This document shows positions 154 to 13,147 of a stretch of DNA of 24,927 bases, piece by piece. This DNA is from Nitrospira sp. (GTDB taxonomy: Bacteria; Nitrospirota; Nitrospiria; Nitrospirales; Nitrospiraceae). A program made the position numbers and the translations under genes. Every line of letters starts with the position of its first letter. Positions within the stretch are counted from its first letter, which is position 1. The stretch covers positions 1 through 24,927 of the forward strand of contig JAJFBJ010000081.1 in NCBI GenBank assembly GCA_020697375.1, read 5' to 3'. The notes below the pieces were generated by a model. It did no database searches. It saw nothing but the letters and a program-made list of their open reading frames with translations, and had not been told where the DNA came from.

Positions 154-810
154 ATGGGCATACGTGGCCGGTTTATCGGGCTCCTGATTGTCGTCACGGT
201 CGCCCTGGCCGCTTCCTTCTTCGGACATGCGTTTCTGTTCGAGCAATGGCGCATGCAACAAGAGCGACAGCTCCATCGTTCGAAAATTCTTGAAGAAGTG
301 TTGCGCTTGCAACGCCTCATGATGGATGTGGAGACGAATTTTCGGGGCTATCTCCTGGCCGAACAACAGTCCTTTCTCGAACCCATTCAGTTGGCGGAAG
401 TCCGCCTGGAAATCGGCATTGCGCGGTTGACGGATCTGACTGCGAGCACGCCCGGTCTGCAGGCCGGAGTGCAGGTACTTTCAGCCCGTCTGAAAGAATT
501 CATCGACAGCAAAAAACAGTTGGCCGCTTTCATCGGAACGGACCAGCAGGAACAGGTCCGGTTATATGTGCGGGGTGGAAACGGCCGTGCGCTGTTCCTG
601 ACCGTTGAAAAGGCCATCGGAGATTTCGAAGTGCGGATTGAACGCGAAGTGCCGCTTGCATCCATGACCTACGAATCCTGGATGCAACGCGCTCGATGGC
701 AGCTGTTGCTCCTGGAAGGCCTTGGGGTCGTCCTCTGCGTCTATCTCACCAGAACCATAGGACTGCCGAAGAAAAATTCTTTCGAATCGGGCGCTCGCCT
801 CCTGCTTTGA
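154..810 (+). CDS. CHASE3-domain membrane sensor, truncated after second TM helix
   Basis: The 218-residue product has a hydrophobic helix at about residues 8-28, an extracytoplasmic helical region at 29-180 that reads like a CHASE3 sensor domain (amphipathic stretches around LQRLMMDVETNFRGYLL), and a second hydrophobic helix at about 181-200. In CHASE3 receptors this is followed by HAMP and histidine kinase, cyclase or chemotaxis modules. Here the reading frame ends 18 residues after the second helix (TRTIGLPKKNSFESGARLLL) and no kinase motif follows in any frame. I chose the ATG at 154 because it starts directly before the first helix; the frame is open upstream to a TTG at 19, but that extension is Arg/Ser-rich and unconvincing. 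No strong ribosome site is visible. It is either a sensor fragment left by loss of the output domain, or a stand-alone sensor acting through a partner. The domain call is by pattern only. Confidence 0.6.
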   Translation: MGIRGRFIGLLIVVTVALAASFFGHAFLFEQWRMQQERQLHRSKILEEVLRLQRLMMDVETNFRGYLLAEQQSFLEPIQLAEVRLEIGIARLTDLTASTPGLQAGVQVLSARLKEFIDSKKQLAAFIGTDQQEQVRLYVRGGNGRALFLTVEKAIGDFEVRIEREVPLASMTYESWMQRARWQLLLLEGLGVVLCVYLTRTIGLPKKNSFESGARLLL

Positions 811-887
811 TTCACCGCCCGGCCCTTCTTCCCTTCCTTTGATTCAGCGCCGATTGGGTTTCTGACGCCCACCGGTTGGCGATAATT

Positions 888-907
888 CGCACAGTGCGCC
901 ATGTGCG
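888..907 (+). promoter_or_regulatory. Putative activator-binding site (motif copy A)
   Basis: The 20-mer reads CGCAC-A-GTGCG-CCAT-GTGCG. It lies inside a perfect 9-bp inverted repeat, AATTCGCAC at 884-892 and GTGCGAATT at 903-911. Its centre is about 97 bp upstream of the predicted sigma-54 start site near 995, a normal distance for a bacterial enhancer-binding protein. Copies B (2708-2727) and C (9435-9454) share 15 of the 16 fixed or two-fold positions. The site is seen directly; the regulator is unknown. Confidence 0.65.
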
Positions 908-968
908 AATTCGCTCGATTTGAATCAGTAGAAAATTAAAAAAGCTTTGATTTCCAAGCAAATCGCCG

Positions 969-984
969 TGGCATGTGCCTTGCT
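969..984 (+). promoter_or_regulatory. Sigma-54 (-24/-12) promoter of the 38-aa membrane protein
   Basis: TGGCATG then TGCC then TTGCT matches the RpoN consensus TGGCACG-N4-TTGCW with exact GG-N10-GC spacing (GG 970-971, GC 982-983). Transcription should start near 995, leaving a leader of about 33 nt to the ATG at 1028. An AT-rich tract lies just upstream (about 928-960), between the enhancer-like palindrome and the promoter, where DNA bending is usual. Confidence 0.75.
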
Positions 985-1027
985 TTGTTAAGTGATCGTC
1001 ACGCAAACGAAAGAAAGGGGCCACCAC

Positions 1028-1144
1028 ATGATACGGATGATCAAGGTACGGATGATTAAGCGGATCGGTGATCGAGAATTGGCATGGGCCATGCTGGCAG
1101 TGGCTGCCGTCGCGATCTGGAGCACCTGGGGGCTCATCAGCTAA
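1028..1144 (+). CDS. 38-residue single-helix membrane protein
   Basis: This small gene encodes 38 residues: a basic N-terminus (MIRMIKVRMIKRIGDRE, with an internal repeat of the unit RMIK/VRMIK) followed by one hydrophobic helix (LAWAMLAVAAVAIWSTWGLIS) that runs to the C-terminus. The positive-inside rule suggests the N-terminus is cytoplasmic. A good ribosome site, AAAGGGG at 1014-1020, sits 7 nt before the ATG, and a near-perfect sigma-54 promoter lies 44-59 bp upstream, so the gene is far better supported than its length suggests. It resembles small stress-induced membrane peptides in form only; I recognise no family. A weak terminator-like hairpin follows at 1287-1307. An antisense frame covers the same bases but lacks any expression signal. 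Confidence 0.6.
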   Translation: MIRMIKVRMIKRIGDRELAWAMLAVAAVAIWSTWGLIS

Positions 1145-1645
1145 ACCACCTGTAGGCTGCCGTCGCTCAATATCTGCTTTCATCGCAAGACGAGTCCCAA
1201 TGAGGCTCTGCGCTATCGTTCTCCTGTTAGTCTGCCCTCCGCATTTACCATCACCATTCTCTTGAAGGCATGCTCAGATCCGCTGGAGAAGCTAGCGCAG
1301 AGCTTCTTTTGTGGACGAACAGGGATTCCCCTCCCGGTGACGAACGGGTTATGCCGGCCGTGGCATTGTGAAGCGATCCTGAGCCGTTTTCATCGGCTTA
1401 TCTCGCGCCGGAACAATGGAACCACCGATCGTTATTGCACAGCATTTCGGCCACAAGCGCGAGAGCTGTCGTGTCGTGATGAGCACATTGTTCAAGGTAA
1501 GATCGAACGTGGAGTCCATAGATTCCGGCTCCTGCTTGTCAGGTCTATGATGATGAGGTTGGGGATACGTGACGGCTGTGGACCTGTTTTTTCGACAGAA
1601 GGCGAACGCGTTCAGAGAAGCGCTTGCACCGAAAATGTTCCAGTC
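1145..1645. other. Non-coding gap between the small membrane gene and the modA-like gene
   Basis: I see no convincing gene here. The long plus-strand frame from 1262 starts at TTG without a ribosome site, runs antisense through the modA-like gene and has a composition unlike a protein. The stretch holds the weak hairpin at 1287-1307, a 5-bp hairpin (AGCCG/CGGCT) near 1383-1399 and a 10-bp palindrome GAACGCGTTC near 1605. It may be the 3' untranslated region of the two convergent transcripts. Confidence 0.5.
1287..1310 (+). terminator. Possible weak rho-independent terminator
   Basis: AGAAGCT at 1287-1293 pairs with AGCTTCT at 1301-1307 around a 7-nt loop and runs into TTTT (1307-1310). The stem is only 7 bp and the T tract is short, so this is a tentative end for the small sigma-54 transcript. 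Confidence 0.3.
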
Positions 1646-2446
1646 TCAGCCCCGTGCCTCATTCGATGGCATGGAATCAAATCCATATTTGAGCAGGAGT
1701 TTTTGGATGCGAGGACTCATGATGAAATTGAAAAAGTCTTCCGCCGCACTAAGAGATGCTTCTTTACAGGTCCATACCACCGCCTCCCCGAATTGAACCG
1801 TTGTATACCTTCCCGCCGGCGCTTCGTCAATGATGCGTACTTGACCGCTGTTGATCGCGTCCACGCGGTAGACGATGCCCACCTCAGCCCCCCCTGTGCG
1901 AATTAAATTCACAACGTCCTCGCTATGTTGCGCGTGGAGAAGGTGAGAACGGTTCTTATAGGCGGGATTGAGCTTGGTGAGCGCCCTGGCAGTGATTTCC
2001 CCCAAGGCTGAAGTCTGAGGATCGACGAGGGCGATGCGGATTGTTCGATCAGGAAACACTTCGCGAAAGGAGATCGAGGCTGCCGGGGAGGCCGTGGCCA
2101 TGACGAGCACGAGAGAGGTCTGGGCAAAGATGCGAGGCCCTCCGTTGAGAGTCAGACCCTTCTTTTGCAGTCTCTCGACTTCCTCAAACGACTCGGGAAG
2201 AAATACATCGATAGGAGCTCCCTGTTCAATCTGCCTGCGAAGCGTTCGCGACGGACCGTACAGCACCTGTACCGTCACACCATATTCTTTCTCGAACATC
2301 GGCACGATATCTTGGAAGGCCCCCTTCAGACTATGGGCTGCCGCAACTGCCAGGGTTTCAGCCTGAACAGCATTCTCGGTCACCACGACGCTTGCGAGTC
2401 CAATTACGAGAGCCATCGCGATGCTAAATTTCCGAAATCCCACCAT
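1646..2446 (-). CDS. ModA-like periplasmic substrate-binding protein (orphan)
   Basis: The 266-residue product has a signal peptide (hydrophobic core at about 9-22, cleavage likely after VQA at 27-29) and a class II solute-binding fold of the molybdate-binding ModA type: AAAHSLKGAFQDIVPMFEKEYGV near the mature N-terminus, YGPSRTLRRQIEQGAPIDVFLPES in the first lobe, TSLVLV at the hinge and GGAEVGIVYRVDA in the second lobe. Length is normal for ModA. A GGAAGAGGAG ribosome site precedes the ATG. ModA normally works with ModB and ModC, but none is present nearby. The gene diverges from the RND efflux operon and has its own sigma-54-like promoter, with the two promoters sharing one activator-type site. 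The ligand could be molybdate, tungstate or another oxyanion; an efflux- or signalling-related role is inference from position. Confidence 0.8.
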   Translation of the reverse strand: MVGFRKFSIAMALVIGLASVVVTENAVQAETLAVAAAHSLKGAFQDIVPMFEKEYGVTVQVLYGPSRTLRRQIEQGAPIDVFLPESFEEVERLQKKGLTLNGGPRIFAQTSLVLVMATASPAASISFREVFPDRTIRIALVDPQTSALGEITARALTKLNPAYKNRSHLLHAQHSEDVVNLIRTGGAEVGIVYRVDAINSGQVRIIDEAPAGRYTTVQFGEAVVWTCKEASLSAAEDFFNFIMSPRIQKLLLKYGFDSMPSNEARG

Positions 2447-2573
2447 GTGCTCCTCTTCCTGACGTTATCGTCAAAGCTCCTTGCCGGTACAGCCGATCGG
2501 TGAGCCTGATCGATCTCAGATCCTGAATGCTGAGCGCCATGCGTCTTCCTGCAGGCACTGTTGCTCCTTGATG

Positions 2574-2589
2574 CGCAAGATCGATACCA
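2574..2589 (-). promoter_or_regulatory. Sigma-54 promoter of the modA-like gene
   Basis: Read on the minus strand the site is TGGTATC-GATC-TTGCG, with GG-N10-GC spacing kept exactly. The predicted start is near 2563. The centre of motif copy B lies about 155 bp upstream of that start. The -24 box matches TGG and the -12 box matches TTGC; the A/T after TTGC is G here. Confidence 0.65.
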
Positions 2590-2707
2590 CCTGTAGTATT
2601 GATCGGACGACCTTTTCGGCAATCAACCTAACCGCCACATTTCCAATGAATTCTTAGGCCTCTTCGGTCACTGTATGGGCCAGGCCTGTGGCAAACATGT
2701 GAAATTA

Positions 2708-2727
2708 CGCACGGTGCGCTCAGTGCT
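2708..2727 (+). promoter_or_regulatory. Putative activator-binding site (motif copy B), shared by divergent promoters
   Basis: The 20-mer reads CGCAC-G-GTGCG-CTCA-GTGCT, preceded by AATTA as copies A and C are preceded by AATT and AATTC. It lies about 155 bp from the modA-side start and about 163 bp from the RND-side start, so a single bound activator could serve both promoters. The outer half-site is less palindromic than in copies A and C (GTGCT in place of GTGCG). Confidence 0.6.
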
Positions 2728-2854
2728 GAACCGCGCAATTCAGGGTTGCGGGGGTTTGCCGGTAGAACTATCAGAGAGGCTCGCCATGTTCCAAGGCAGT
2801 AAATGGCGCAGCGCTTTTTGCGGCAGACTCATTTCGCAGAGTGAATTCGACGAC

Positions 2855-2870
2855 TGGTAAGCTCCTTGCT
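2855..2870 (+). promoter_or_regulatory. Sigma-54 promoter of the RND efflux operon
   Basis: TGGTAAG-CTCC-TTGCT fits the RpoN consensus with GG at 2856-2857 and GC at 2868-2869, exactly 10 bp apart. The predicted start is near 2881. It is the best -24/-12 match upstream of the permease gene at 3044 and has motif copy B in the expected enhancer position. Confidence 0.7.
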
Positions 2871-3043
2871 ACATCTCAGGCTGGTGTGTAGTAAGGGTCG
2901 AGTCATGCCGGTCCCCACGAATGTTCTATGAAAACATGGCAATGAACCTGTTCCTCTCAACCTCTGTATCGGAACCATAGGGGTCGTATAGAAAACTCTG
3001 CCCACATGGCGAAAAATAGAACCGCGTTCGGCGGACTTGGCAC

Positions 3044-4546
3044 ATGAACGAGATTGTTCTCATTGCCCTGCGCAGGCCCTACACCTTCGTCGTCATGTCT
3101 ATCCTTATCGTGCTGCTGGGCGCCAAGACGGTGCTCCACATGCCGACCGACATCTTCCCGAATATCACGATTCCCGTCACCTCCGTAGTCTGGATCTACA
3201 ACGGCCTGCTGCCGCAGCAGGTGGAAGGGCGCATCACATATCTGTTCGAACGCTTTCTGACCTCGACGGTGGAAGGCATCAAGTACATCCACAGCCACTC
3301 CTACTTCGGCAGCAGCATCACCAACATTTATCTCCAGGACGGAGTCGATGTGGCCAGGGCCGAAGCCGATATCGTGGGCATTGCGCAGAACGTCGTCAAG
3401 GCGTTGCCACCAGATATTTCGCCGCCCATGGTCATGCGTCTGGCGCCATCCTCCATACCGGTGGCCATGCTCCAAATCAGCTCCGACAGGATGACGCCCG
3501 CGGAGCTTTATAACCTCGTCTACATGCGGATCCGCCCTCTGCTCGTGACGGTACCGGGGATAGTCCTGCCGCACCCATACGGCGGGCAGGACATGCAGGT
3601 CATGGTCAATCTCGATCAGCAGAAACTGCTCGCCCGTCAACTCACTCCGGCGGACATTCACGATGCCCTCATGAAGCAATATCTCGTGCTGCCGGCCGGG
3701 GACATTAAGATCAAGCAGACGGACTGGATCGTCCTGACGAACGCGTCACCGTTGAAGATTGAGCATTTCAACGATATCCCGATCAAGCGGGAAGGTAACG
3801 CATTCATCTATCTGCGCGACGTCGCCACGGTGCAGCTCATGGGCCGGGTGCAACAGAACGCGGTGCTGGTGAAGGGCAAACAGACCGTCATCCTCGTCGC
3901 GATGAAGAGCACGGAGGCCTCGACTCTCGACGTCGTCGATGGGATCAAGAAGCTGATCCCGCGCGCCGAGCAAATCTCTCCCGAGGGCGTGGAGATCAAG
4001 CTCCTCGACGACGCCTCGACCTTCGTGAAGGATTCGATCTCGGACGTTCTGCATGAAATGCTGATGGCCGGTGCGCTGGTCGGCCTCATCGTGCTGTTGT
4101 TGCTCGGCTCATGGCGGGCCACCGTCATCGTCTGGACCTCGATCCCGCTGTCCATTCTGACCGCCATCATCGGCCTGCATCTGCTCGACGAGACGATCAA
4201 CGTCATGACGTTGGGCGGGTTAGCGCTGGCCGTCGGCATTCTGGTAGACGATGCGACCGTGATGATTGAAAACATCGATCGCCATATCGAAATGGGCAAG
4301 CCGCTCGAACAGGCCATCATCGACGCCGCCAATCAGATCGTCGTCCCGACGCTCGTCGCCACCCTCTGCATCGCGATCGTCTGGCTTCCGCTTTTCGAGC
4401 TCGGCGGCGTCGCCGGCTACCTGTTCAAGCCCATGGCGGAGGCGGTCATCATCGCGATGCTCGCCTCCTTCATCCTGTCGCGCACATTGGTGCCGACCAT
4501 GGCGAAATATATGATGAAGAGTCCCCATGTCGCAGCCGCACGATGA
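3044..4546 (+). CDS. RND efflux permease, N-terminal half
   Basis: This is the first half of an AcrB/MdtB-like inner-membrane proton antiporter. Its 500 residues start with the usual RND opening (NEIVLIALRRPYTFVV, first membrane helix), continue through the first large periplasmic loop with the FPNI motif (DIFPNITIPV), and end with helices 2-6. The helix carrying the proton-relay aspartates is clear (GGLALAVGILVDDATVMIEN). The protein stops right after helix 6 at KSPHVAAAR, where intact homologues go on into the second half. The next ORF starts 20 bp inside this one in the +1 frame, and the two halves together give about 1,060 residues, a normal RND length. No clear ribosome site precedes the ATG, but the conserved N-terminus fixes the start. 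It is either a genuinely split permease or one gene with a one-base shift at the CCCC run near 4523-4526. Confidence 0.85.
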   Translation: MNEIVLIALRRPYTFVVMSILIVLLGAKTVLHMPTDIFPNITIPVTSVVWIYNGLLPQQVEGRITYLFERFLTSTVEGIKYIHSHSYFGSSITNIYLQDGVDVARAEADIVGIAQNVVKALPPDISPPMVMRLAPSSIPVAMLQISSDRMTPAELYNLVYMRIRPLLVTVPGIVLPHPYGGQDMQVMVNLDQQKLLARQLTPADIHDALMKQYLVLPAGDIKIKQTDWIVLTNASPLKIEHFNDIPIKREGNAFIYLRDVATVQLMGRVQQNAVLVKGKQTVILVAMKSTEASTLDVVDGIKKLIPRAEQISPEGVEIKLLDDASTFVKDSISDVLHEMLMAGALVGLIVLLLLGSWRATVIVWTSIPLSILTAIIGLHLLDETINVMTLGGLALAVGILVDDATVMIENIDRHIEMGKPLEQAIIDAANQIVVPTLVATLCIAIVWLPLFELGGVAGYLFKPMAEAVIIAMLASFILSRTLVPTMAKYMMKSPHVAAAR

Positions 4547-6221
4547 TCATGGTAAGGCGGGCGTGAAACCATCGCGGAACGTCTTCGTCCGGTTTCAGCA
4601 GGCGTTCGAACGCGGCTTCAATCGGTTCCGCGAGCGCTACGGTGCGATGCTCGAACGGGTCATCGCCCGTCGGAGCGCCTTCGTCACGATTTCTCTGGCC
4701 ATTGCGGTGGGATCGCTGTCGCTCTTCTATTTCCTCGGGCGCGATTACTTCCCCGAGATCAGGTCGGGGATCATTACGATGCATATGCGTGCGCCGCTCG
4801 GGACGCGCATCGAGGTATCAGCACGCATTGCGACTCTTGTCTCCGACAGCATTGAGGAGTTGCTGCCCGGTCAGGTCGAAAACGTCGTCAGTAATTGCGG
4901 CTTGCCGGTCGGACCGCACAATCTCGCCTTCATTCCGACGCCGACCATCGGCTCACAGGATTGTGATCTGACGATCCTTTTGAAGAATGAAAAGTCGCCG
5001 GTGTGGGACTACCGGCGCACTCTCCGCAAGGGCCTGAAGGAGCGTTATCCGGGAACTGAATTCACGTTTCAGCCTTCCGATCTGACCGCAAAAATTCTCA
5101 ACTTCGGCGCGCCTGCGCCGATCGATGTGCAAATCAACGGCCCGGACATGTATCCCAACTACGAGTTCGCCCGAAAACTGGTAAGCAAATTTCGCGAAAT
5201 CCCGGGCGCCACCGACGTGGTGATCCAGCAGACGATGCGCACGCCGACCCTCATGGTCGAAGGCGACCGCACGTTCGGGCTCGGTGTCAACAGGACTCTG
5301 AAGGAAATGGCCGACAACCTACTCATGACGACCGCCGGGAGCCAACAGGTCGACCAGATCTACTGGCTCGATCCCAGCACAGGCATGTCGTACCTGATCA
5401 ATGTCTATACGCCGCAGTCGCAGATCAACAGCGTCAATAGTCTCAAGACCATCCCGGTCGAGTCCTCCGGCAATTCTCCGAACGGTCAGGAGATGCAGCT
5501 TCTCGGCAATTTGGCCGGCATCTCAGCGGAGGGAACGCCGGGCGTAGTCACGCACGGAAACATTATGCCGCTGTTCAACATCTACGTCTCAGCGGAAGGG
5601 CGTGACCTCGGCGCGGTGCTGGCGGATGTCGAAAAGGTCGCCAAGAGCATGGAGCAGGACTTGCCCGGCAGCGCGGCGCTCGAAATCCATGGCCAGGCCT
5701 CACTGATGCACGAGGCCTATTTCGAGCTGATCTTTGGACTGCTCGTCGCAATCGCGCTGGTCTATCTGCTGATCGTCGTCAACTTCCAATCCTGGCTGGA
5801 TCCCTTCATCATCATTACGGCCTTGCCAGGCGCGCTGGCGGGTATCGCCTGGGCGCTGTTCCTGACCCATACGCGGCTTTCGGAGCCCGCGCTGACGGGC
5901 GCCATCATGACCATGGGCACGGCGACCGCCAATTCGATCCTCGTCGTCTCCTATGCCCGTGAACGGCTCGAAGAGCACGGCGATGCCCTGCGGGCCGCGA
6001 TCGAAGCCGGAACGACCCGCTTCCGTCCGGTGCTCATGACTGCCTCGGCCATGATCATCGGGATGGTTCCCATGGCGACAGGGTATTCCGCCAATGCGCC
6101 GCTGGGTCGCGCCGTCATCGGCGGCTTGCTCGTTGCCACCGTCTTCACCCTGCTGTTCGTGCCCTGCGTCTACGCGATGGTCTACAACAGGCGAGCGGGT
6201 CGCCAAAAGGACCGTGCATAA
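4527..6221 (+). CDS. RND efflux permease, C-terminal half
   Basis: The 564-residue product holds helices 7-12 and the second periplasmic loop of an RND permease. It opens with a His/Asp-rich linker (SQPHDDHGKAG), then FERGFNRFRERYGAML and the helix-7 region, then DYFPEIRSG, the second-half counterpart of the FPNI motif. The C-terminal membrane block has the usual RND signatures (GALAGIAWAL, MGTATANSILVVSYARERLEEHG, RFRPVLMTASAMIIGMVPMA). The ATG at 4527 lies within the end of the preceding ORF, and no ribosome site is evident, which favours a frameshifted single gene over two separately initiated proteins. It is followed after one base by the adaptor gene, so the operon order is permease, adaptor, outer-membrane factor. 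Confidence 0.85.
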   Translation: MSQPHDDHGKAGVKPSRNVFVRFQQAFERGFNRFRERYGAMLERVIARRSAFVTISLAIAVGSLSLFYFLGRDYFPEIRSGIITMHMRAPLGTRIEVSARIATLVSDSIEELLPGQVENVVSNCGLPVGPHNLAFIPTPTIGSQDCDLTILLKNEKSPVWDYRRTLRKGLKERYPGTEFTFQPSDLTAKILNFGAPAPIDVQINGPDMYPNYEFARKLVSKFREIPGATDVVIQQTMRTPTLMVEGDRTFGLGVNRTLKEMADNLLMTTAGSQQVDQIYWLDPSTGMSYLINVYTPQSQINSVNSLKTIPVESSGNSPNGQEMQLLGNLAGISAEGTPGVVTHGNIMPLFNIYVSAEGRDLGAVLADVEKVAKSMEQDLPGSAALEIHGQASLMHEAYFELIFGLLVAIALVYLLIVVNFQSWLDPFIIITALPGALAGIAWALFLTHTRLSEPALTGAIMTMGTATANSILVVSYARERLEEHGDALRAAIEAGTTRFRPVLMTASAMIIGMVPMATGYSANAPLGRAVIGGLLVATVFTLLFVPCVYAMVYNRRAGRQKDRA

Positions 6222-6222
6222 A

Positions 6223-7494
6223 ATGGGTAAGATCCTGCGTGGAAGACTAATGGTCATCTCAGCGATCCTCCTCTGTGTGCTGTACATCGGCTATCGGATT
6301 TATGAGAGCAAAAGCGACGCCGCTCTGCTGCGCGAACAGACGCTGGAAGAGGCCGTTCCTACCGTGGCGGTCATCTATCCGAAGCCGGTGCCGCCGACCG
6401 AGACCATTACGCTCCCCGGCAATGTTCAGGCTTGGTTTCAGGCGCCGATCTACGCGCAGGTCTCGGGCTATGTGAAGATGTGGTACAAGGACTACGGCGA
6501 GCTGGTGAAGAAGGGCGATGTCCTCGCCGAAATCAACGCGCCGGCCCTCGACGCCCAATATGCGCAGGCCAAAGCGGATCTGGAGTCGGTGCGCGCCATA
6601 TATGCTCTCGCCGATCTTACAGCGAAGCGCTGGGTGGCGCTGCGCAAAAACCATGCGGTGTCCGAGCAGTCGATCTCGGTGCAGGAAGCCCACGCCAAAG
6701 CCGAATTGGCGAAGGTCAGGGCATCGGAACAGAATGTCAAAAATTTCGAGGCGCTGATTCGGTTCAAAACGATCGTCGCGCCCTATGATGGCGTGGTGAC
6801 CGTTCGCAACATCAACGTCGGTGAATACGTCAATAAGGAAGGCGGGTTCAGTAGTCCCAATGCGGTCAGCAATCTCTTTACCGTGGCCGACGTCAGCATG
6901 TTGCGCCTCTTTGTCTCGGTGCCGGAGTCGTTCGGGCCCTTCCTCAAGCCGGGCATGACGGCCGAGGTGACGGTGCCGCAATTGCCCGGTCGACAGTACA
7001 CCGCCCAATTCCTGACTGTCGCCCGCGGGTTCGATGTGAGCACGCGCACCGCGATCACCGTCTTCACGATCGAGAACGAGGACAGAGCCCTCTGGCCCGG
7101 CTCCTATGCCCAGGTCATGCTCACGGCGCCGGTCGACAGGCAAGTGCACACGATTCCCTCCACCGCGTTGGTGTTCCAGGAGCACGGCACCGAAGTGGCC
7201 GTGGTGACGCGGGACGGCCGGGTGCACTTACAACCAATCACCGTGAGCCGACTCCTCGACAACGCCGTCGAAGTGGCAGAGGGGATTTCCACGAGCGACC
7301 GCATCGTGAACAACCCCAGCGCCGCGTTACTTGAAGGCGACAAGGTGCGCGTCGTGACTCCGGCGCCCGGTTATGACCTCATCGATACAGAAGGGACTAC
7401 CTCAAGGGAATCTTCCGGATCGAAAGCTCCCGGGTCAAAAGAAGATCCCGGCTCGAAAGAAGCTTTGACCTCAAACGAGCAGTCTCCCAAATGA
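6223..7494 (+). CDS. RND periplasmic adaptor (membrane fusion protein)
   Basis: The 423-residue HlyD/AcrA-type adaptor links the permease to the outer-membrane channel. It has an N-terminal membrane anchor (about 8-24), then a lipoyl-like half (PTVAVIYPKPVPPTETITLPGNVQAWFQAPIYAQVSGYVKMWYKDYGELVKKGDVLAEI), an alpha-hairpin (about 108-170), the second lipoyl half (FKTIVAPYDGVVTVRNINVGEYV), and beta-barrel and membrane-proximal domains with the VPESFGPFLKPGMTAEV and PSTALVFQEHGTEVAVV patterns. The start is the ATG one base after the permease stop, since the open frame further upstream is antisense-like read-through of the permease gene. The last 25 or so residues are an unusual low-complexity tail with three GSK units (SSGSKAPGSKEDPGSKEAL), which is not part of the adaptor fold. 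Confidence 0.9.
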   Translation: MGKILRGRLMVISAILLCVLYIGYRIYESKSDAALLREQTLEEAVPTVAVIYPKPVPPTETITLPGNVQAWFQAPIYAQVSGYVKMWYKDYGELVKKGDVLAEINAPALDAQYAQAKADLESVRAIYALADLTAKRWVALRKNHAVSEQSISVQEAHAKAELAKVRASEQNVKNFEALIRFKTIVAPYDGVVTVRNINVGEYVNKEGGFSSPNAVSNLFTVADVSMLRLFVSVPESFGPFLKPGMTAEVTVPQLPGRQYTAQFLTVARGFDVSTRTAITVFTIENEDRALWPGSYAQVMLTAPVDRQVHTIPSTALVFQEHGTEVAVVTRDGRVHLQPITVSRLLDNAVEVAEGISTSDRIVNNPSAALLEGDKVRVVTPAPGYDLIDTEGTTSRESSGSKAPGSKEDPGSKEALTSNEQSPK

Positions 7495-7510
7495 GGGGCT
7501 ATTACAGGTA

Positions 7511-9124
7511 ATGGACCAGCGATTACGAACGAGACCAGAGATGTCGTGCATCTTCCAGGCCCCAGCGTGGCGAGGCGGCATTCTACTATTAGTGCTCAAC
7601 TTGCCGGCCTGCAATAGTTTCCCGGCCGTCGACCTGTCGCCCACCTATGAGCCGGCCCAATTCGTCGTCCCAGCCTCATGGCGTGGGTCGAGTCCCTTCG
7701 TCGAGGCGAAGCCGTCGGATGGCGAATTGCGTCAGGAGTGGTGGAAGCTCTATAACGACCCGATCCTGAATCAGCTTGAAGAACAGGCCATGGCGACCAA
7801 TCCGGACCTGCAGGCCGCCGCCGAGCGGTTCGTTCAGGCCCGCGATGTGATGATGAGGGCCAGGTCGCAGTACATGCCTCGCGTCGGCCTGGGGTTCGAC
7901 GCCTCGGACAATAGACAGTCGGTCAATCGCCTGTTTCGCGCGCCCGACAGTCCGCTCGAGGAATCAAGCGTATGGGGCGGGGGGCTCGCGTCCTGGGAGC
8001 CCGACTTCTGGTCGACGCTCCGCAATGCGACCCGCGTCGAGCTGTACCGCGCAGAAGAGCGCGCCGCTGACTATGGGCTCGCCCGCCTCAGCCTGCAGGC
8101 GGAAATTGCCGCCAACTATTTCACTCTGCGCGGCCTCGACGCGCAGGATGCCATCTATTCCCAATCCATCGCCCTCTACAAACAGTCGCTCGACCTCGTC
8201 AAGGCCCAATTCGTCGGCGCCATCGCCTCGGCGCTCGATGTCGCCCGCGTCGAATCTCTGCTGTTCAGCACGGAGACGAAATTGGCCCAGATTCAAGGCC
8301 AACGCCAAGTGACGGAACAGGCTATCGCCATCCTTCTCAATATGGCGCCGGCCAGTTTCAAGATTAAGCCGGTCGACGACCTGCGCGTGGCGAATTTTAC
8401 GGTTCCCCAGACCATTCCATCCACCTTGCTCGAGCGCCGGCCTGATGTCGCCGGGATGGAGCGCCGGATGGCGCAGGCGAACCGAGTCATCGGCATTGCG
8501 CGCGCCGCCTTTTATCCCAATATCTCGTTCCGGCTCGGGGGCGGGTTCGAGGATGACGCCTTCAATCTGTTCAAGCTCGCTAATAGCTTCTGGTCCTACG
8601 GCTCCGCCGTCTCGCTGCCGCTCTTCCAGGGTGGGTATCGCCGCGCTCAATTACAGCAATCCTGGTCGGCCTATCGCGAGACGGAAGACCGGTACCGTTC
8701 GACCGTGCTGAACGCCTTTCGCGAAGTGGAGAACAATTTGAGCCTGACCAACCGGCTGACGCTCGCGGCCAACCGGCAAGACGCCGCCGTCGGGGCCACG
8801 CTCCAGACGCAAGACCTGACCACGGAGCTCTATCAGGGCGGTCTGGCTTCCAGCCTTGAGCTAATTTACGCGCAGGTCGCCACGCTGACGGCGCGCATCG
8901 ACTCGGTACAGATCAAGGCCGAACTGCTGAGAACCTCGGTGGCGCTCATCCGCGCGCTCGGCGGGGGCTGGAACCGCCGGCAATTGCCCACGGATGAGCA
9001 AATCCAGCCCTTCGATACATTCCAATATACCAACCTCGACAAACCGCCACCCGCTGGGGGAATCGACGTCAATGCAGGCAATAACCGGATCAACAATGAT
9101 CTGACAAAACCCGTCGGCCCTTGA
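7511..9124 (+). CDS. NodT/TolC-type outer-membrane efflux lipoprotein
   Basis: The 537-residue protein is the outer-membrane factor of the RND system. It has a signal sequence ending in a lipobox (LPAC, cysteine 34), then the two repeated coiled-coil and barrel halves of the family. Typical elements are WWKLYNDPILNQLEEQAMATNPDLQAAAERFVQARDVM in the first half, LARLSLQAEIAANYFTLRGLD, the family signature IPSTLLERRPDVAGMERRMAQANRVIGIARAAFYPNIS, and SLPLFQGGYRRAQLQQSWSAYRETE in the second half. A second in-frame ATG at 7541 would give a shorter signal peptide; either start keeps the lipobox. The 16-bp gap from the adaptor gene indicates co-transcription. No terminator is obvious after the stop. 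Confidence 0.9.
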   Translation: MDQRLRTRPEMSCIFQAPAWRGGILLLVLNLPACNSFPAVDLSPTYEPAQFVVPASWRGSSPFVEAKPSDGELRQEWWKLYNDPILNQLEEQAMATNPDLQAAAERFVQARDVMMRARSQYMPRVGLGFDASDNRQSVNRLFRAPDSPLEESSVWGGGLASWEPDFWSTLRNATRVELYRAEERAADYGLARLSLQAEIAANYFTLRGLDAQDAIYSQSIALYKQSLDLVKAQFVGAIASALDVARVESLLFSTETKLAQIQGQRQVTEQAIAILLNMAPASFKIKPVDDLRVANFTVPQTIPSTLLERRPDVAGMERRMAQANRVIGIARAAFYPNISFRLGGGFEDDAFNLFKLANSFWSYGSAVSLPLFQGGYRRAQLQQSWSAYRETEDRYRSTVLNAFREVENNLSLTNRLTLAANRQDAAVGATLQTQDLTTELYQGGLASSLELIYAQVATLTARIDSVQIKAELLRTSVALIRALGGGWNRRQLPTDEQIQPFDTFQYTNLDKPPPAGGIDVNAGNNRINNDLTKPVGP

Positions 9125-9434
9125 CGATCCCTCACAAGTCTTGACTCTCTCTCGCTCGCTTTCAAGCCTCCCAAACCTGCCGTCTTTGCGTTGAACCTAT
9201 GGAGCAGTAGGGGCTCTCGTCGGGATTCACTCGATGTGATTGCGTCAATAGCGAACCGTCCTCTTCGTCCATCTGCCAGACAGAAGTGAAGCATTTCGGA
9301 TTCCTGAATCGCAGTGACTGTTCATCTGCAGGCGATCGCCTGGCGTCCTGCGAGTAAGTCATACGATGAAGGACAGGACATAGGAGCAGTACTACAACAG
9401 CGTTTTCAATCGAGACAATGCGACTGAGCGAAAC

Positions 9435-9454
9435 CGCACGGGACGCACCGTGCG
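9435..9454 (-). promoter_or_regulatory. Putative activator-binding site (motif copy C)
   Basis: Read on the minus strand it is CGCAC-G-GTGCG-TCCC-GTGCG. On the plus strand it is part of an inverted repeat with 8-bp arms (CCGCACGG 9434-9441, CCGTGCGG 9448-9455). AATTC precedes it on the minus strand, and the bases after it (GTTTCGCTC) resemble those after copy A (AATTCGCTC). Its centre is about 127 bp upstream of the predicted sigma-54 start near 9572. Confidence 0.6.
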
Positions 9455-9545
9455 GAATTCTTGCGCCACGAAATCCGCCCACGACAATTCCACGCAGGCC
9501 GTCTCAGTCATGGGTGATTTGCTTCGTGGGCTTCCACGAACCAGT

Positions 9546-9561
9546 GGGATCACATATTGCA
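9546..9561 (+). promoter_or_regulatory. Sigma-54 promoter of the second envelope cluster
   Basis: GGGATCACATATTGCA has GG (9547-9548) and GC (9559-9560) exactly 10 bp apart and a perfect TTGCA -12 box. The -24 box is poorer (GGGATCA against TGGCACG). The predicted start near 9572 leaves a leader of about 67 nt. Confidence 0.55.
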
Positions 9562-9638
9562 CAACAATGGATCATGACCGAGTCCTTCGCCGTAGAACAG
9601 AAATTCCGAAGCGGTCCTCTCTCGCAAGGAGGTGGATG

Positions 9639-9902
9639 ATGGAGCGTCATGACGATCGATCGGCAGGCCCGACCGATCAACAAATTTTTTCGTTGTTACA
9701 GCAAAATCGCCGGATCACCTTTCTCGCGCCGGCGGATTTGCTTCCGGCATATAGCTGGCGTTCCCTATTTGTGGCCTTGAGCCGAGGGAGCCATCAACAG
9801 CATGTCGAATTGATTCCGCTGTCAGCGGATTACGAAGTGTTGTGGCGACATTCCCGCGAAGGTTCTGCCGTGAAGCCCGAAGAGTCCTGCGTTGCGGGCT
9901 AG
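9639..9902 (+). CDS. Small soluble hypothetical protein (87 aa)
   Basis: I do not recognise a family. The product is 87 residues with a polar N-terminus (MERHDDRSAGPTDQQIFSLLQQNRRITFLAPADLLPAYSWRSLFVALSRG) and no membrane helix or signal peptide. A very strong ribosome site (AAGGAGGT at 9626-9633) favours the ATG at 9639, with 5-6 nt spacing; the ATG at 9636 is also possible. It is the first gene after the sigma-54 promoter at 9546 and is followed after 2 nt by a lipoprotein gene, so it leads an operon. Confidence 0.6.
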   Translation: MERHDDRSAGPTDQQIFSLLQQNRRITFLAPADLLPAYSWRSLFVALSRGSHQQHVELIPLSADYEVLWRHSREGSAVKPEESCVAG

Positions 9903-9904
9903 CC

Positions 9905-10258
9905 ATGCGACGGCCATGGTCGCTCTGGCTCAGATCGCTGCTGTTGGGCGGAGCCTGCCTCCTGCCAGGTTGCGTGGATGCGGGGACAGAGCTTGAACTG
10001 ACGACGTTTGACCGGGGGCAGGATCAAGAAAAGATAGCGGACCTCTATCGTGAGGAAGCTGCCAGGCTACGGTATATGGCGCGCGACCTGCTCGATCGAG
10101 CGGCGGTCTACGGACATGTGTTCGGGCAAGATTCAGACTGGGTCCGGGGAACCCGTCTGTTGGCTCAGTCTTATCTGGATGCGGCAAGAGATCACGAGGC
10201 TAAAGCCGAGAGACATTATCAATTGTCTCATGAGTCACACTTTCCCCCGGTTCGATGA
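9905..10258 (+). CDS. Small helical lipoprotein (117 aa)
   Basis: The 117-residue product opens with MRRPWSLWLRSLLLGGACLLPGC, a classic lipoprotein signal with lipobox LPGC (cysteine 23). The mature part is charged and helical (REEAARLRYMARDLLDRAAVYG, SYLDAARDHEAKAERHYQ), which suggests a coiled-coil lipoprotein at the inner or outer membrane. I chose the ATG at 9905, 2 nt after the preceding stop, because it places the signal peptide at the N-terminus. Its stop overlaps an ATG at 10255, and the next gene's better start is at 10306. Function is unknown; its neighbours (SPFH-like lipoprotein, protease) point to envelope maintenance. Confidence 0.65.
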   Translation: MRRPWSLWLRSLLLGGACLLPGCVDAGTELELTTFDRGQDQEKIADLYREEAARLRYMARDLLDRAAVYGHVFGQDSDWVRGTRLLAQSYLDAARDHEAKAERHYQLSHESHFPPVR

Positions 10259-10305
10259 AAGAATTTTCAGCGGAACCCGATCGTTCTGATCGGAAAGGAG
10301 GTCTT

Positions 10306-11057
10306 ATGACCCGCTGGACGACGATCATTGTGCTTCTCTTGTCGGGTTTCCTGCTCGAAGCCTGCGGGACGACCGTTCATCCCGGGCAACGGGGCCTGCG
10401 TTGGTATCCACTCGGTGAAGGATTGACCACTGAACCGCTGAAGAGCGGTTTCTACTGGCGCGCTCCCTGGAACGACGTGTTCGTCTACGACGTTCGCTGG
10501 CAGAGTTTTACGGAAAAAGTGGATGCCTTGAGTGCCGATGATCTCCCGGTGATGCTGCACAGCGCCATCACCATGCGGCCGGTCGATCGCGAACTTTATT
10601 TCCTCGCCCAGGAGTTGGGGCCCAGATGGTATCAGGAAGTCGTCAAGCCGTTGTTTCTCTCGTCTGTGCGGAGCGTGATCTCCAACTATCCCATGGTAAG
10701 GAACAGGAAAAAGAACAGAAGGAATTTGAAGTGCTGATCGCCAGCCGAGATGCGGAAATCGCGCGCATTTCCGCGAAGGGACAAGGAGATTCCATCCGCA
10801 TCAGGTCGGAAGGCGAGGCCGAAGGGGTGAAGATCCGGGCGCTTGGACAGGCCAGGGCGCAGGAGACGATTACGAAAACGCTGACTCCCGAGTATCTTCG
10901 ATACAAGCTCTACGATAGTCCGAACGCGAAAATGGTGTTGCTGCCGGACAATTTGCATGTGCCGATTCTGATCAACCCGGACCAGGAGCGCGGGGCAAAA
11001 ATAAATCCAGAAAGCCTCATGCATGCGGAGCAGGGCCTGACCGATAAAGGACGCTAG
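10306..11057 (+). pseudogene. SPFH/prohibitin-like lipoprotein gene with internal deletion and frameshift
   Basis: The first part starts at an ATG with a strong AAAGGAGGT ribosome site and encodes a lipoprotein signal (LLEAC, cysteine 20) and the first half of a band-7/prohibitin domain (VHPGQRGLRWYPLGEGLTTEPLKSGFYWRAPWNDVFVYDVRWQSFTEKVDALSADDLPV), up to SVRSVISNYPMV. There the frame changes and ends at a stop near 10737. The C-terminal part continues in another frame from about 10695 (KEQEKEQKEFEVLIASRDAEIARISAKGQGDSIRIRSEGEAEGVKIRALGQARAQETITKTLTPEYLRYKLYDSPNAKMVLLPDNLHVPILIN) to 11057. In intact relatives a segment of some 40 residues, covering the end of the SPFH fold and the start of the long helix, lies between these parts. 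It appears missing, so this is more than a one-base slip. SPFH proteins scaffold membrane microdomains and often work with proteases, as with the HtrA-type gene downstream. Confidence 0.75.
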
Positions 11058-11223
11058 CGCATTCAAAAGGGACCGGGGATGTCGACGCAGCCGAGGTCAG
11101 AATTGATGGTTGCCGAGAGGTAGTTCAGTCCTCGCGGCGGCGGCGACCATAGAAACAGCCGACGACAGCCGGCCTATGGCCGTGATCGTAGGGGTGACAT
11201 GTCGCAAACGGAAGGAGAACTCC

Positions 11224-11640
11224 ATGGATGGGCATGGAAGGCGCGTGCTGGTTGCGGACCAAGAGGAGTCCGTATGTTGCCTGATCAGGGCGATCCTTGA
11301 GCGAGCCGGCTATATCGTTCATTCGGCAACCGATGGAATCGAAGCCCTTTCCGAGATGAAGAGACTGCGCTTCAATGCAATTATGGCGGATTATGCCATG
11401 CCCCGGCTCGATGGCGTGCGCCTCCTCCTGCTGAGCCGCATGATGTGGCCGCAGATCCCGGTCCTGCTTCTTTCCAATGAATGCATGGAACTGCCGGGCC
11501 TGGTTCAAAAACAAGGCCTGTGCGCCTTCATTCAGAAACCCTTCGATCCACAGGACTTGCTGCGGATCCTTGAGGAAACTCTGTCGTGGGCATCTGAACA
11601 GGCTCCGGCTGTTCCCACGGCGGCGGAAGTGTCGCCATGA
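11224..11640 (+). CDS. Single-domain response regulator
   Basis: The 138-residue protein is a CheY-like receiver with no output domain. The acidic pocket is present (D12 in VLVADQEES), the phosphoacceptor is D56 in MADYAMPRLDG, S84 (LLLLSNE) takes the switch Ser/Thr place and K105 is in IQKPFD. About 20 C-terminal residues (EQAPAVPTAAEVSP) form a short tail. The ATG at 11224 has a ribosome site (AAGGAGAA) 5-6 nt upstream; the open frame runs further upstream but without signals. It lies 166 bp after the broken SPFH gene and 98 bp before the protease gene, so it may be part of the same sigma-54 transcript. No cognate kinase is in the window. Confidence 0.85.
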   Translation: MDGHGRRVLVADQEESVCCLIRAILERAGYIVHSATDGIEALSEMKRLRFNAIMADYAMPRLDGVRLLLLSRMMWPQIPVLLLSNECMELPGLVQKQGLCAFIQKPFDPQDLLRILEETLSWASEQAPAVPTAAEVSP

Positions 11641-11650
11641 GATGCAATTG

Positions 11651-11674
11651 CCCCTGTGATGCGTCTCTCAGGGG
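11651..11674 (+). other. Hairpin between response regulator and protease genes
   Basis: CCCCTGTGA and TCTCAGGGG form 9-bp arms with one mismatch and a 6-nt loop. No T run follows, so it is more likely an mRNA-stabilising or processing hairpin than a terminator. Confidence 0.35.
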
Positions 11675-11738
11675 ATGGCGGCCGGCGGAGACGAGACTAA
11701 ATAAATCGCGCATCGTTCCGTAGAGACGATTCTCAATT

Positions 11739-12935
11739 ATGAGGTGGGTGATGAGGAGATTCGAGAGGTCATTGCATCGAATGGGATTTCACGGACTTGC
11801 CGTAACGGCCATGGCTGCGCTCTGCTTATCTGCGCCCATTCCCGTGTCGGCCCATGAGGGGACTGAGCCTGACGAACGCCGTACGATCGATCTGTTTCAA
11901 CGGTTGGCGCCTGCCACGGTGTTTCTGTCGGTTACATATGACTCGACCCATCCGCTGTTGAGCCCTTCCGTCACCGGCGTGGGAGCAGGCTTCGTCGTTG
12001 ATGAATCCGGCACAGTGCTGACGAATAGCCATGTCGTCGAAGGAGCACAGATGGTCACCGCCACGTTCTATGACGGCCGGCGGGTTTCTGCAGCACTGGT
12101 CGGGCTCGATCCGACCTCCGATGTCGCCGTGCTGCAGCTCGCCGCCGAGCGTCCGGCGATCGTCCCGATCCTTCTCGGCGACTCCGACGCATTGCGAATC
12201 GGACAACAGACGATGGTAGTGGGAAGTCCATTCGGCCTTGGATTTACCCTCACGACGGGAATCATCAGCGGCGTAGGCCCACCGCAGGGAATGACGCCCT
12301 TTGCTCCTTCCCGGCTGATTCAAACGACGGCGCCGCTCAATCCCGGTAACAGCGGTGGACCCTTGGTGGATTCGCAAGGCCAGGTGGTCGGCATTGCCAC
12401 GGCCACGCTGATGGGCGCGCAGAATATCGGCTTCGCCATCCCTATCAACGTCGCGAAACAGGTGCTGGCGGAGTTGAAAGAAAAGGGTCGAGTCGTGCGC
12501 CCCTGGCTCGGTGTCGGCGGAAAATTCGTGACCGAAGACCTCCGGCGGCTGTTGACCCTGCCCCTGACCACCGGCTTGCTGGTGGAAGATATCGAGGATG
12601 GGAGTCCCGCCGGGGAGGCTGGTATCAGGACCGGTCAATTGAATATGACGATCGAAGGGGTGCCGTGGGTGCTGGGAGGTGACATCGTCGTGGCTCTTCA
12701 TGGTCAGCCCATTCCCACGCCGGAAGCGTTCGCGCAGGTGTCGTCACAGCTCCAGGTGGGGCAAGAGGTCCAAGTTGAGGTTATGCGGGAGGGCCAACGT
12801 CTGATGAGGTCCGTGGTGCTCAGTGAACGGCCGGTTACCTCAGGCCGGCGCCCGCATCAGTCGCGTCAACAGATGTCGGAGGCAGTCCCGCGCGGTCTCA
12901 TGCGAGCGATCGACGCTCAGTTATCATCGTTTTGA
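11739..12935 (+). CDS. HtrA/Deg-family periplasmic serine protease with one PDZ domain
   Basis: The product of up to 398 residues has a signal peptide (core about 19-33, cleavage near VSA-HE at 38-39), a trypsin-like domain with the full triad (H98 in TNSHVVEG, D128 in DPTSDVAVLQL, S205 in NPGNSGGPL) and the GSPFGLGFTLTTGIISG loop, and a single C-terminal PDZ domain (about 255-362: RPWLGVGG, GLLVEDIEDGSPAGEAGI, GDIVVALHGQPI). Such proteases degrade or refold damaged envelope proteins. The ATG at 11739 has no ribosome site, whereas GAGGTG at 11741-11746 serves the in-frame ATG at 11751 (MRRFERS), which may be the true start. It lies downstream of the SPFH-like and response regulator genes. The 30-residue tail after the PDZ (SGRRPHQSRQQMSE) is polar and of unknown role. 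Confidence 0.9.
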   Translation: MRWVMRRFERSLHRMGFHGLAVTAMAALCLSAPIPVSAHEGTEPDERRTIDLFQRLAPATVFLSVTYDSTHPLLSPSVTGVGAGFVVDESGTVLTNSHVVEGAQMVTATFYDGRRVSAALVGLDPTSDVAVLQLAAERPAIVPILLGDSDALRIGQQTMVVGSPFGLGFTLTTGIISGVGPPQGMTPFAPSRLIQTTAPLNPGNSGGPLVDSQGQVVGIATATLMGAQNIGFAIPINVAKQVLAELKEKGRVVRPWLGVGGKFVTEDLRRLLTLPLTTGLLVEDIEDGSPAGEAGIRTGQLNMTIEGVPWVLGGDIVVALHGQPIPTPEAFAQVSSQLQVGQEVQVEVMREGQRLMRSVVLSERPVTSGRRPHQSRQQMSEAVPRGLMRAIDAQLSSF

Positions 12936-13041
12936 GTTGAACAGGACCCGACCCGGTTTGCCCGTCGCCGATCATCCCATGACAACGTTCGGCTCGATCT
13001 AGGGTACTTCCCAGCTGTTGGGGTTCATGTTCGGCTGATAC

Positions 13042-13066
13042 AGGACTACAGGTTGCGCTCAGTGCG
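13042..13066 (+). promoter_or_regulatory. Degenerate motif copy upstream of hpnR
   Basis: TGCGCTCAGTGC at 13054-13065 is identical over 12 bp to the right half of motif copy B (2716-2727 region), but the left CGCAC half is not conserved. A GG-N10-GC arrangement with TTGC (13042-13057) overlaps it, and another weak one lies at 13094-13109 (CGGAAAACC-GG-CCGCA). Neither has a good -24 box, so control by sigma-54 is only suggested. Confidence 0.25.
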
Positions 13067-13147
13067 CTTAGATGGAACGGCGGGCCATGGCAACGGAAAA
13101 CCGGCCGCAGAGGGACATGGTCCAGTGACATGTAAGGAGGAGATACA

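Follow-up and report, generated by a model that had tools for sequence, protein, structure and literature searches.

Two-component systems such as NtrBC, AtoSC and ZraSR couple a kinase to an activator built of a receiver, an AAA+ and a Fis-type helix-turn-helix (HTH) domain, which acts from an upstream site on a -24/-12 promoter; NtrC-type activators are phosphorylated, oligomerise on the DNA and drive open-complex formation. The envelope is also served by sigma-54 activators, as in ZraPSR and in the phage-shock system, whose activator PspF has no receiver domain. Here we describe a predicted system of this kind in Nitrospira, nitrite-oxidising bacteria that are central to nitrification, based on a stretch of 24,927 nucleotides from a Nitrospira sp. 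(GCA_020697375.1, contig JAJFBJ010000081.1, positions 1 to 24,927; hereafter the window), in which copies of one DNA motif lie ahead of sigma-54-like promoters. Comparison with the genomes of relatives of this organism gives good support, in silico, for a sigma-54 regulon whose promoters share an activator motif. This motif probably serves as upstream activating site for a Nitrospiraceae regulon run by a CHASE3-PAS kinase and its partner, an enhancer-binding protein (EBP) that we call EBP-D.

The predicted EBP-D system shares the kinase and activator domain layout, the upstream site and the promoter type of NtrBC, AtoSC and ZraSR, and differs from them in its targets and in its site. EBP-D itself scored under the cut-off for all of the best 25 of 113 NCBIfam families (AtoC 427 of 714, NtrC 390 of 558.6, ZraR 337 of 760) and reached 252 of the cut-off of 444 for the PspF model, and the source names of its relatives, where one is given, are generic ('sigma-54-dependent Fis family', 'AtoC'; the 120 listed of 724 relatives). 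The scanned window proteins included no match to the PspA or ZraP families; a small membrane protein among the predicted targets resembles PspG.

Sigma-54 regulators encoded beside the nxr genes of Nitrospira have been discussed for nitrite oxidoreductase (PMC6606698, PMC7522533); these are sigma-54 activators as well, but the available passages of both papers give no binding site and do not concern the targets described here. In an acid-tolerant Nitrospira, an RND/SMR/OsmC cluster with a sigma-54 regulator was read as stress adaptation (PMC12516955), which likewise places RND genes beside such a regulator, though in a different cluster and, in the passages available, with no site, promoter or regulon. 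The sigma-54 regulome of Desulfovibrio, a similar comparative reconstruction in another organism, found most promoters within 100 nt of the activator site, and neither GTGCG nor CGCAC appears in the available main text (PMC4641369). No binding site is assigned to any Nitrospira sigma-54 activator in the passages of the cited papers. The present regulon was found neither among the titles and abstract openings of the matches listed, in a search with most subscription journals outside its coverage, nor in passages of PMC6606698, PMC7522533, PMC4641369, PMC6131200 and PMC12516955. Within the parts of the literature searched, the kind of system is thus known (NtrC-type sigma-54 two-component) and this regulon is undescribed.

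The initial annotation had proposed three exact copies of a 20-bp motif, and all three were recovered without mismatch (888-907 and 2708-2727 on the forward strand, 9435-9454 on the reverse strand), each with AATT 0-1 bp ahead of it. The motif is present as it was described, but it is only part of a longer element, a half-site array with the extended consensus attCGCACaGTGCGnncnGTGCGAAttCGCTC, derived from 54 distinct sites picked by the architecture pattern defined below. Two of the window copies (sites 2 and 3) carry three mismatches to the 24-bp dyad of this element. Allowing up to three mismatches, the window held seven motif matches (both strands of one site counted separately), against a mean of 1.31 and a maximum of five in 100 dinucleotide shuffles. 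The motif is not common genome-wide: the 24-bp dyad gave 1-11 matches per genome on both strands in ten relatives at up to three mismatches. In the main genome set, 175 genomes of Nitrospiraceae, the family of N. moscoviensis (G005), the motif occurred at up to two mismatches in 86 genomes (11 matches in total for the backward control) and its exact core CGCACNGTGCGNNNNGTGCG in 67 (one backward-control match).

We next considered the position of the motif relative to promoters. The architecture pattern (the site, N50-80 and GG-N8-TTGC) produced 76 matches in 55/175 genomes and none in the backward control. Spacing, taken as the position difference between the final base of the 24-bp dyad and the base that opens the -24 box, peaked at 59 (34/76) and 69 (18/76), and 71 of the 76 matches fell at 58-61 or 68-71, two classes that are one helical turn apart; members of the 59-bp class have an A-tract separating the promoter from the site. 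Orthology explains part of this pattern: the small-protein gene accounts for 32 of the matches (31 at 59, one at 58). Among the other 44 the peak is at 69 (18), followed by 60 and 61 (five each). A promoter-like site scoring at least 12, on a base-frequency scale, was present 20-200 bp from 51 of 76 distinct motif sites, compared to 103 of 1520 positions drawn at random from these loci, and the difference held at stricter cuts (42 vs 64 at 13; 36 vs 67 at 14). The motif is therefore a conserved dyad at set distances from -24/-12 promoters, as is typical of an upstream activating site. In a wider draw of 395 Nitrospirota genomes, the phylum to which the search was confined, 40 carried the architecture, each already found in the family search, and none of the 284 newly drawn genomes (G177-G460) did.

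Within the window, neither promoter pattern is enriched (GG-N10-GC alone, 337 vs 340 expected; the longer TGGCACGN4TTGCW at up to three mismatches, 31 vs 40 expected), so the promoter test had to be comparative. The four GG-N10-GC promoters of the initial annotation are indeed there (970-983, 2575-2588 on the reverse strand, 2856-2869 and 9547-9560), with a conserved TGGCA/TTGC flavour typical of sigma-54 promoters; three of them score 10.4-17.2, and the one at 9546 scores below 9. All four stand as predictions because they are conserved in aligned relatives, and at all three loci the motif is kept together with its promoters upstream of the orthologues. The core of site 1 and the 969 promoter are both conserved in 6/6 aligned sequences. 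Site 3 is conserved in 4/4, as is the 9546 promoter in the form GTGGGATCACWTATTGCA, with AGC instead of ATC in one of them. Site 2 forms a conserved block between the modA and RND promoters of an otherwise diverged intergenic region (nine sequences, mean column identity 43%), in which the RND -24/-12 elements are kept in 9/9 and those of modA in 8/9 (not seen in L003). The distances of 97-163 bp given in the initial annotation do not describe the dyad to the -24 box, which we place at 60, 117, 126 and 90 bp (the last, for site 3, taken from the coordinates), but they would fit the distances to the predicted start sites. A second promoter-like sequence (score 15.1, window 1080-1095) lies inside the small-protein coding sequence and is likely a by-product of its codons. 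Against Rfam, at gathering thresholds, the window gave no match.

Table 1. Predicted regulatory elements and target genes in the window.
Feature	Position	Strand	Remarks
Predicted upstream activating site 1	886..916	+	24-bp dyad (886-909) with a further half site, CGCTC, up to 916
Predicted upstream activating site 2, flanked by the divergent modA and RND promoters	2706..2729	+	exact 20-bp motif
Predicted upstream activating site 3	9433..9456	-	exact 20-bp motif; 3 mismatches to 24-bp dyad
Predicted sigma-54 promoter, small-protein gene	969..984	+	TGGCATGTGCCTTGCT; score 17.2; 60 bp past site 1
Predicted sigma-54 promoter, ModA-like gene	2574..2589	-	TGGTATCGATCTTGCG; 117 bp from site 2
Predicted sigma-54 promoter, RND operon	2855..2870	+	TGGTAAGCTCCTTGCT; score 14.3; 126 bp from site 2
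Predicted weak sigma-54 promoter	9546..9561	+	GGGATCACATATTGCA; GG-N10-GC; score <9; conserved
38-aa membrane protein	1028..1144	+	one hydrophobic stretch; 67-88% identity to eight relatives
ModA-like solute-binding protein	1646..2446	-	SBP_bac_11; TIGR01256 124.5 bits, cut-off 62.5
RND efflux operon	3044..9124	+	ACR_tran, HlyD_D23, OEP
RND permease, two open reading frames	3044-4546, 4527-6221	+	ACR_tran
RND membrane fusion protein	6223-7494	+	HlyD_D23
RND outer-membrane factor	7511-9124	+	OEP
88-aa protein	9636-9902	+	no Pfam family
Lipoprotein-like protein	9905-10258	+	no Pfam family
Damaged SPFH gene	10306-11057	+	homologue is Band_7
Response regulator	11224-11640	+	Pfam
HtrA-type protease	11739-12935	+	Pfam

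The initial annotation expected a co-conserved enhancer-binding protein, and EBP-D answers to this by co-occurrence and by linkage across the 175 genomes. It became a candidate because it adjoins the motif in G023, where motif and promoter read into the kinase and EBP-D; in four further genomes (G007, G057, G094, G121) the motif stands between the FNT gene and the kinase/EBP-D pair. EBP-D has the domains of an NtrC-type activator (receiver PF00072, AAA+ sigma-54 PF00158, Fis HTH PF02954), and a regular-expression search recovered its GA[FY]TGA and Walker-type motifs. The kinase that adjoins it in L405 carries CHASE3, PAS, HisKA and HATPase domains, and kinase-like open reading frames (ORFs) adjoin EBP-D in other loci too. 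With L113:13777-15162 as query and matches counted at E 1e-190 or better, EBP-D was present in 87/175 genomes, and it followed the motif at up to two mismatches (73/86 genomes with it, 14/89 without), the full architecture (49/55 vs 38/120) and the exact core (58/67 vs 29/108). Core and EBP-D share a contig in 37 of the 58 genomes that have both, and lie within 25 kb of each other in 32 of these 37. Motif, promoters, quantised spacing, conservation and the co-occurrence and linkage of EBP-D are all direct computational results. The window itself is without EBP-D, whose gene would, judging by synteny with G001 and G002, lie past its left end.

Several observations weigh against EBP-D as the activator. 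No motif was found, at up to four mismatches, before FNT or the kinase/EBP-D pair in G001, G002, G006 and G043, the nearest lineage to the window by gene order, and our confidence in the full reading is slightly lowered for this reason. On the contig that holds EBP-D, the exact core is missing within 25 kb of it in G005, G006, G049 and G054 (in G005 a site with one mismatch lies at 8 kb), and 28 kb of G043 likewise hold no exact core site. Nine genomes carry the exact core without EBP-D and 29 carry EBP-D without the core. The Fisher tests on co-occurrence ignore phylogeny and assembly completeness, and three candidates were profiled where six genomes of the family each gave 28-38 sigma-54 activator-domain matches. 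The two other candidates are associated with the motif at up to two mismatches as well, EBP-A weakly (22/86 vs 8/89, p 0.005) and EBP-B at 21/86 vs 0/89 (p 8e-8), and 25 of the 76 distinct motif sites have no good promoter nearby.

The regulon could be real and be driven by EBP-A, EBP-B or a further protein, which we hold to be unlikely. EBP-A is of the NtrC type, has the helix SRRTLYR, often adjoins RND and lipoprotein/SPFH genes and occurs in 30/175 genomes (five by the kinase alone); the motif stands ahead of its gene pair in G043 and G044 and in the vicinity of the pair in G016 and G017. It is, however, independent of the full architecture (10/55 vs 20/120) and of the exact core (10/67 vs 15/108), its counterpart to the core-linkage figure of EBP-D is 4/10 genomes with core and EBP-A, and its best match in G006 is only ~50% although G006 keeps the sites. 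Given its independence of architecture and core, and with the EBP-A-rich clade showing another dyad, we rejected EBP-A as the general activator. EBP-B, a GAF-type protein that adjoins a molybdopterin oxidoreductase and was found in 21/175 genomes, is syntenic with the small-protein site (~7 kb away in several genomes) and associated with the architecture (20/55 vs 1/120), yet it is confined to one genome set and is missing in G001 (best match 54%), which keeps both motif and small protein, and was therefore set aside. Choosing an activator by HTH similarity did not discriminate among the candidates. The sites could instead be bound by a repressor or co-regulator that modulates sigma-54 promoters, a role in keeping with positions 60-130 bp upstream and between divergent promoters and with three or four half sites; the helical-turn steps in spacing, and an enhancer-binding protein that co-occurs with the motif and is linked to it, make this improbable. 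That the motif is a dispersed repeat or chance palindrome with no regulatory role is suggested by its near-palindromic sequence and by the copies lacking a good promoter, but few copies per genome, almost no control matches and preservation within diverged intergenic DNA contradict it, and we give it hardly any credence.

Under the favoured reading, with EBP-D as the activator, we infer binding, phosphorelay and activation from the protein domains and from the established behaviour of NtrC-type activators as follows. The kinase would sense a periplasmic or membrane signal via its periplasmic CHASE3 domain and phosphorylate EBP-D, which would oligomerise on the clustered GTGCG half sites ~60-130 bp upstream of the -24/-12 promoters and, by ATP hydrolysis, remodel sigma-54 RNA polymerase into the open complex. 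Genes switched on in this way would be those for the 33-38 aa membrane protein, the ModA-like protein and the divergent RND pump, the FNT channel and an MFS-type tripartite pump, the CBS and DUF488 proteins and the lipoprotein/SPFH/HtrA cluster; some genomes would add the operon of EBP-D itself. Sequence comparison thus connects a single site with its targets and a probable activator, and yields a spacing rule open to in vitro tests that need no Nitrospira genetics. As most recognised targets are envelope or efflux genes, the output is probably an envelope-stress or toxicant response, a view taken from gene content that suggests a programme for envelope and efflux conserved in these nitrifying bacteria. 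Given the FNT gene and the way of life of Nitrospira, the signal could plausibly be nitrite or reactive nitrogen. We put forward more tentatively, as a doubtful but possible extension, that a Nitrospiraceae-restricted, partly autoregulated CHASE3-kinase/EBP-D pair mounts an envelope response linked to nitrite or reactive nitrogen. This response would open the FNT channel and bring in two tripartite pumps, quality control by lipoprotein/SPFH/HtrA proteins and, in certain genomes, a hopanoid C-3 methylase operon; the small protein, hitherto undescribed, would be its most tightly conserved target and possibly a modulator of pump or channel.

Among the predicted targets, a membrane protein of 33-38 aa was found in 37/175 genomes (E 0.01), with GDRE and WSTWGL invariant in nine aligned sequences; its gene has the full architecture within 250 bp in 32 of these 37 genomes, and EBP-D is present in 35. 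This conserved, very small membrane protein thereby becomes accessible to study for the first time. The ModA-like protein passes the TIGR01256 molybdate-binding cut-off, and no ABC permease (a ModBC partner) was seen among the scanned window proteins. The RND permease is split into overlapping ORFs that cover profile positions 4-493 and 499-1020, one half with up to 97% identity to Nitrospira loci, which places the window in Nitrospira. The genes from 9636 to 12935 form a cluster that presumably makes one transcript; the SPFH-like gene that the initial annotation placed there is present, but it is damaged in the window, where nothing corresponds to ~residues 132-175 of the L102 homologue and the remainder lies in another frame. 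Other genomes add an FNT channel gene accompanied by MFS, outer-membrane and HlyD genes and a CBS-domain gene followed by DUF488, and single lineages add a second RND operon and the EBP-A pair, as well as a gene with a GDSL-like match under the Pfam cut-off. In G094 the regulon lies in one stretch (CBS, small protein, modA, RND, FNT-MFS-outer-membrane factor-HlyD, kinase-EBP-D).

A number of further observations concern the regulators. A shorter EBP-D-like paralogue with receiver and AAA+ domains and no HTH match (L402:4559-5758 and similar ORFs) lies ahead of the kinase/EBP-D pair in the vicinity of SulP-type transporters. In EBP-A (L175:16362-17768), GSFTGA replaces GAFTGA. By eye, a second dyad (~TGGCA-N5-TGCCA) is visible ~110 bp before the -24 box in L318, L321, L322, L323 and L324, from genomes with EBP-A beside RND and SPFH genes, and is perhaps the site of EBP-A. 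In L101:3400-8604, EBP-B is followed by a TAT-signal molybdopterin oxidoreductase; a sigma-54-like promoter (14.7) is present there, and no motif at up to six mismatches. Autoregulation of the EBPs of G006 was considered and rejected: at 17 filter-picked EBP ORFs (of 33 domain matches), no motif was found from -400 bp to +100 bp at up to five mismatches.

Other observations concern the neighbourhood of the sites. A CHASE3-only membrane protein (window 154-810) stands ahead of the small-protein site, and similar ORFs occupy the same place in L107, L176, L181 and L188, with CHASE3 found for L176. The RND permease is also split in L001 and L101, and is a single 1061-aa ORF in L025 and L405. A perfectly palindromic version of the 24-bp motif precedes a ~350-aa ORF in two genomes (L100 386-409, L104 303-326); the L104 copy has no promoter scoring at least 9 within 400 bp. 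The HtrA gene adjoins the gene of the hopanoid C-3 methylase HpnR (window 13148-14704; TIGR04367 882.7, cut-off 650), which we rejected as a window target: 12936-13150 holds no promoter scoring at least 7, and its best motif is a partial one with five mismatches. The hpnR genes of G043 and G044 do have a motif and a weak promoter (7.3) some 470-600 bp ahead of them, in front of a small lipoprotein-like ORF.

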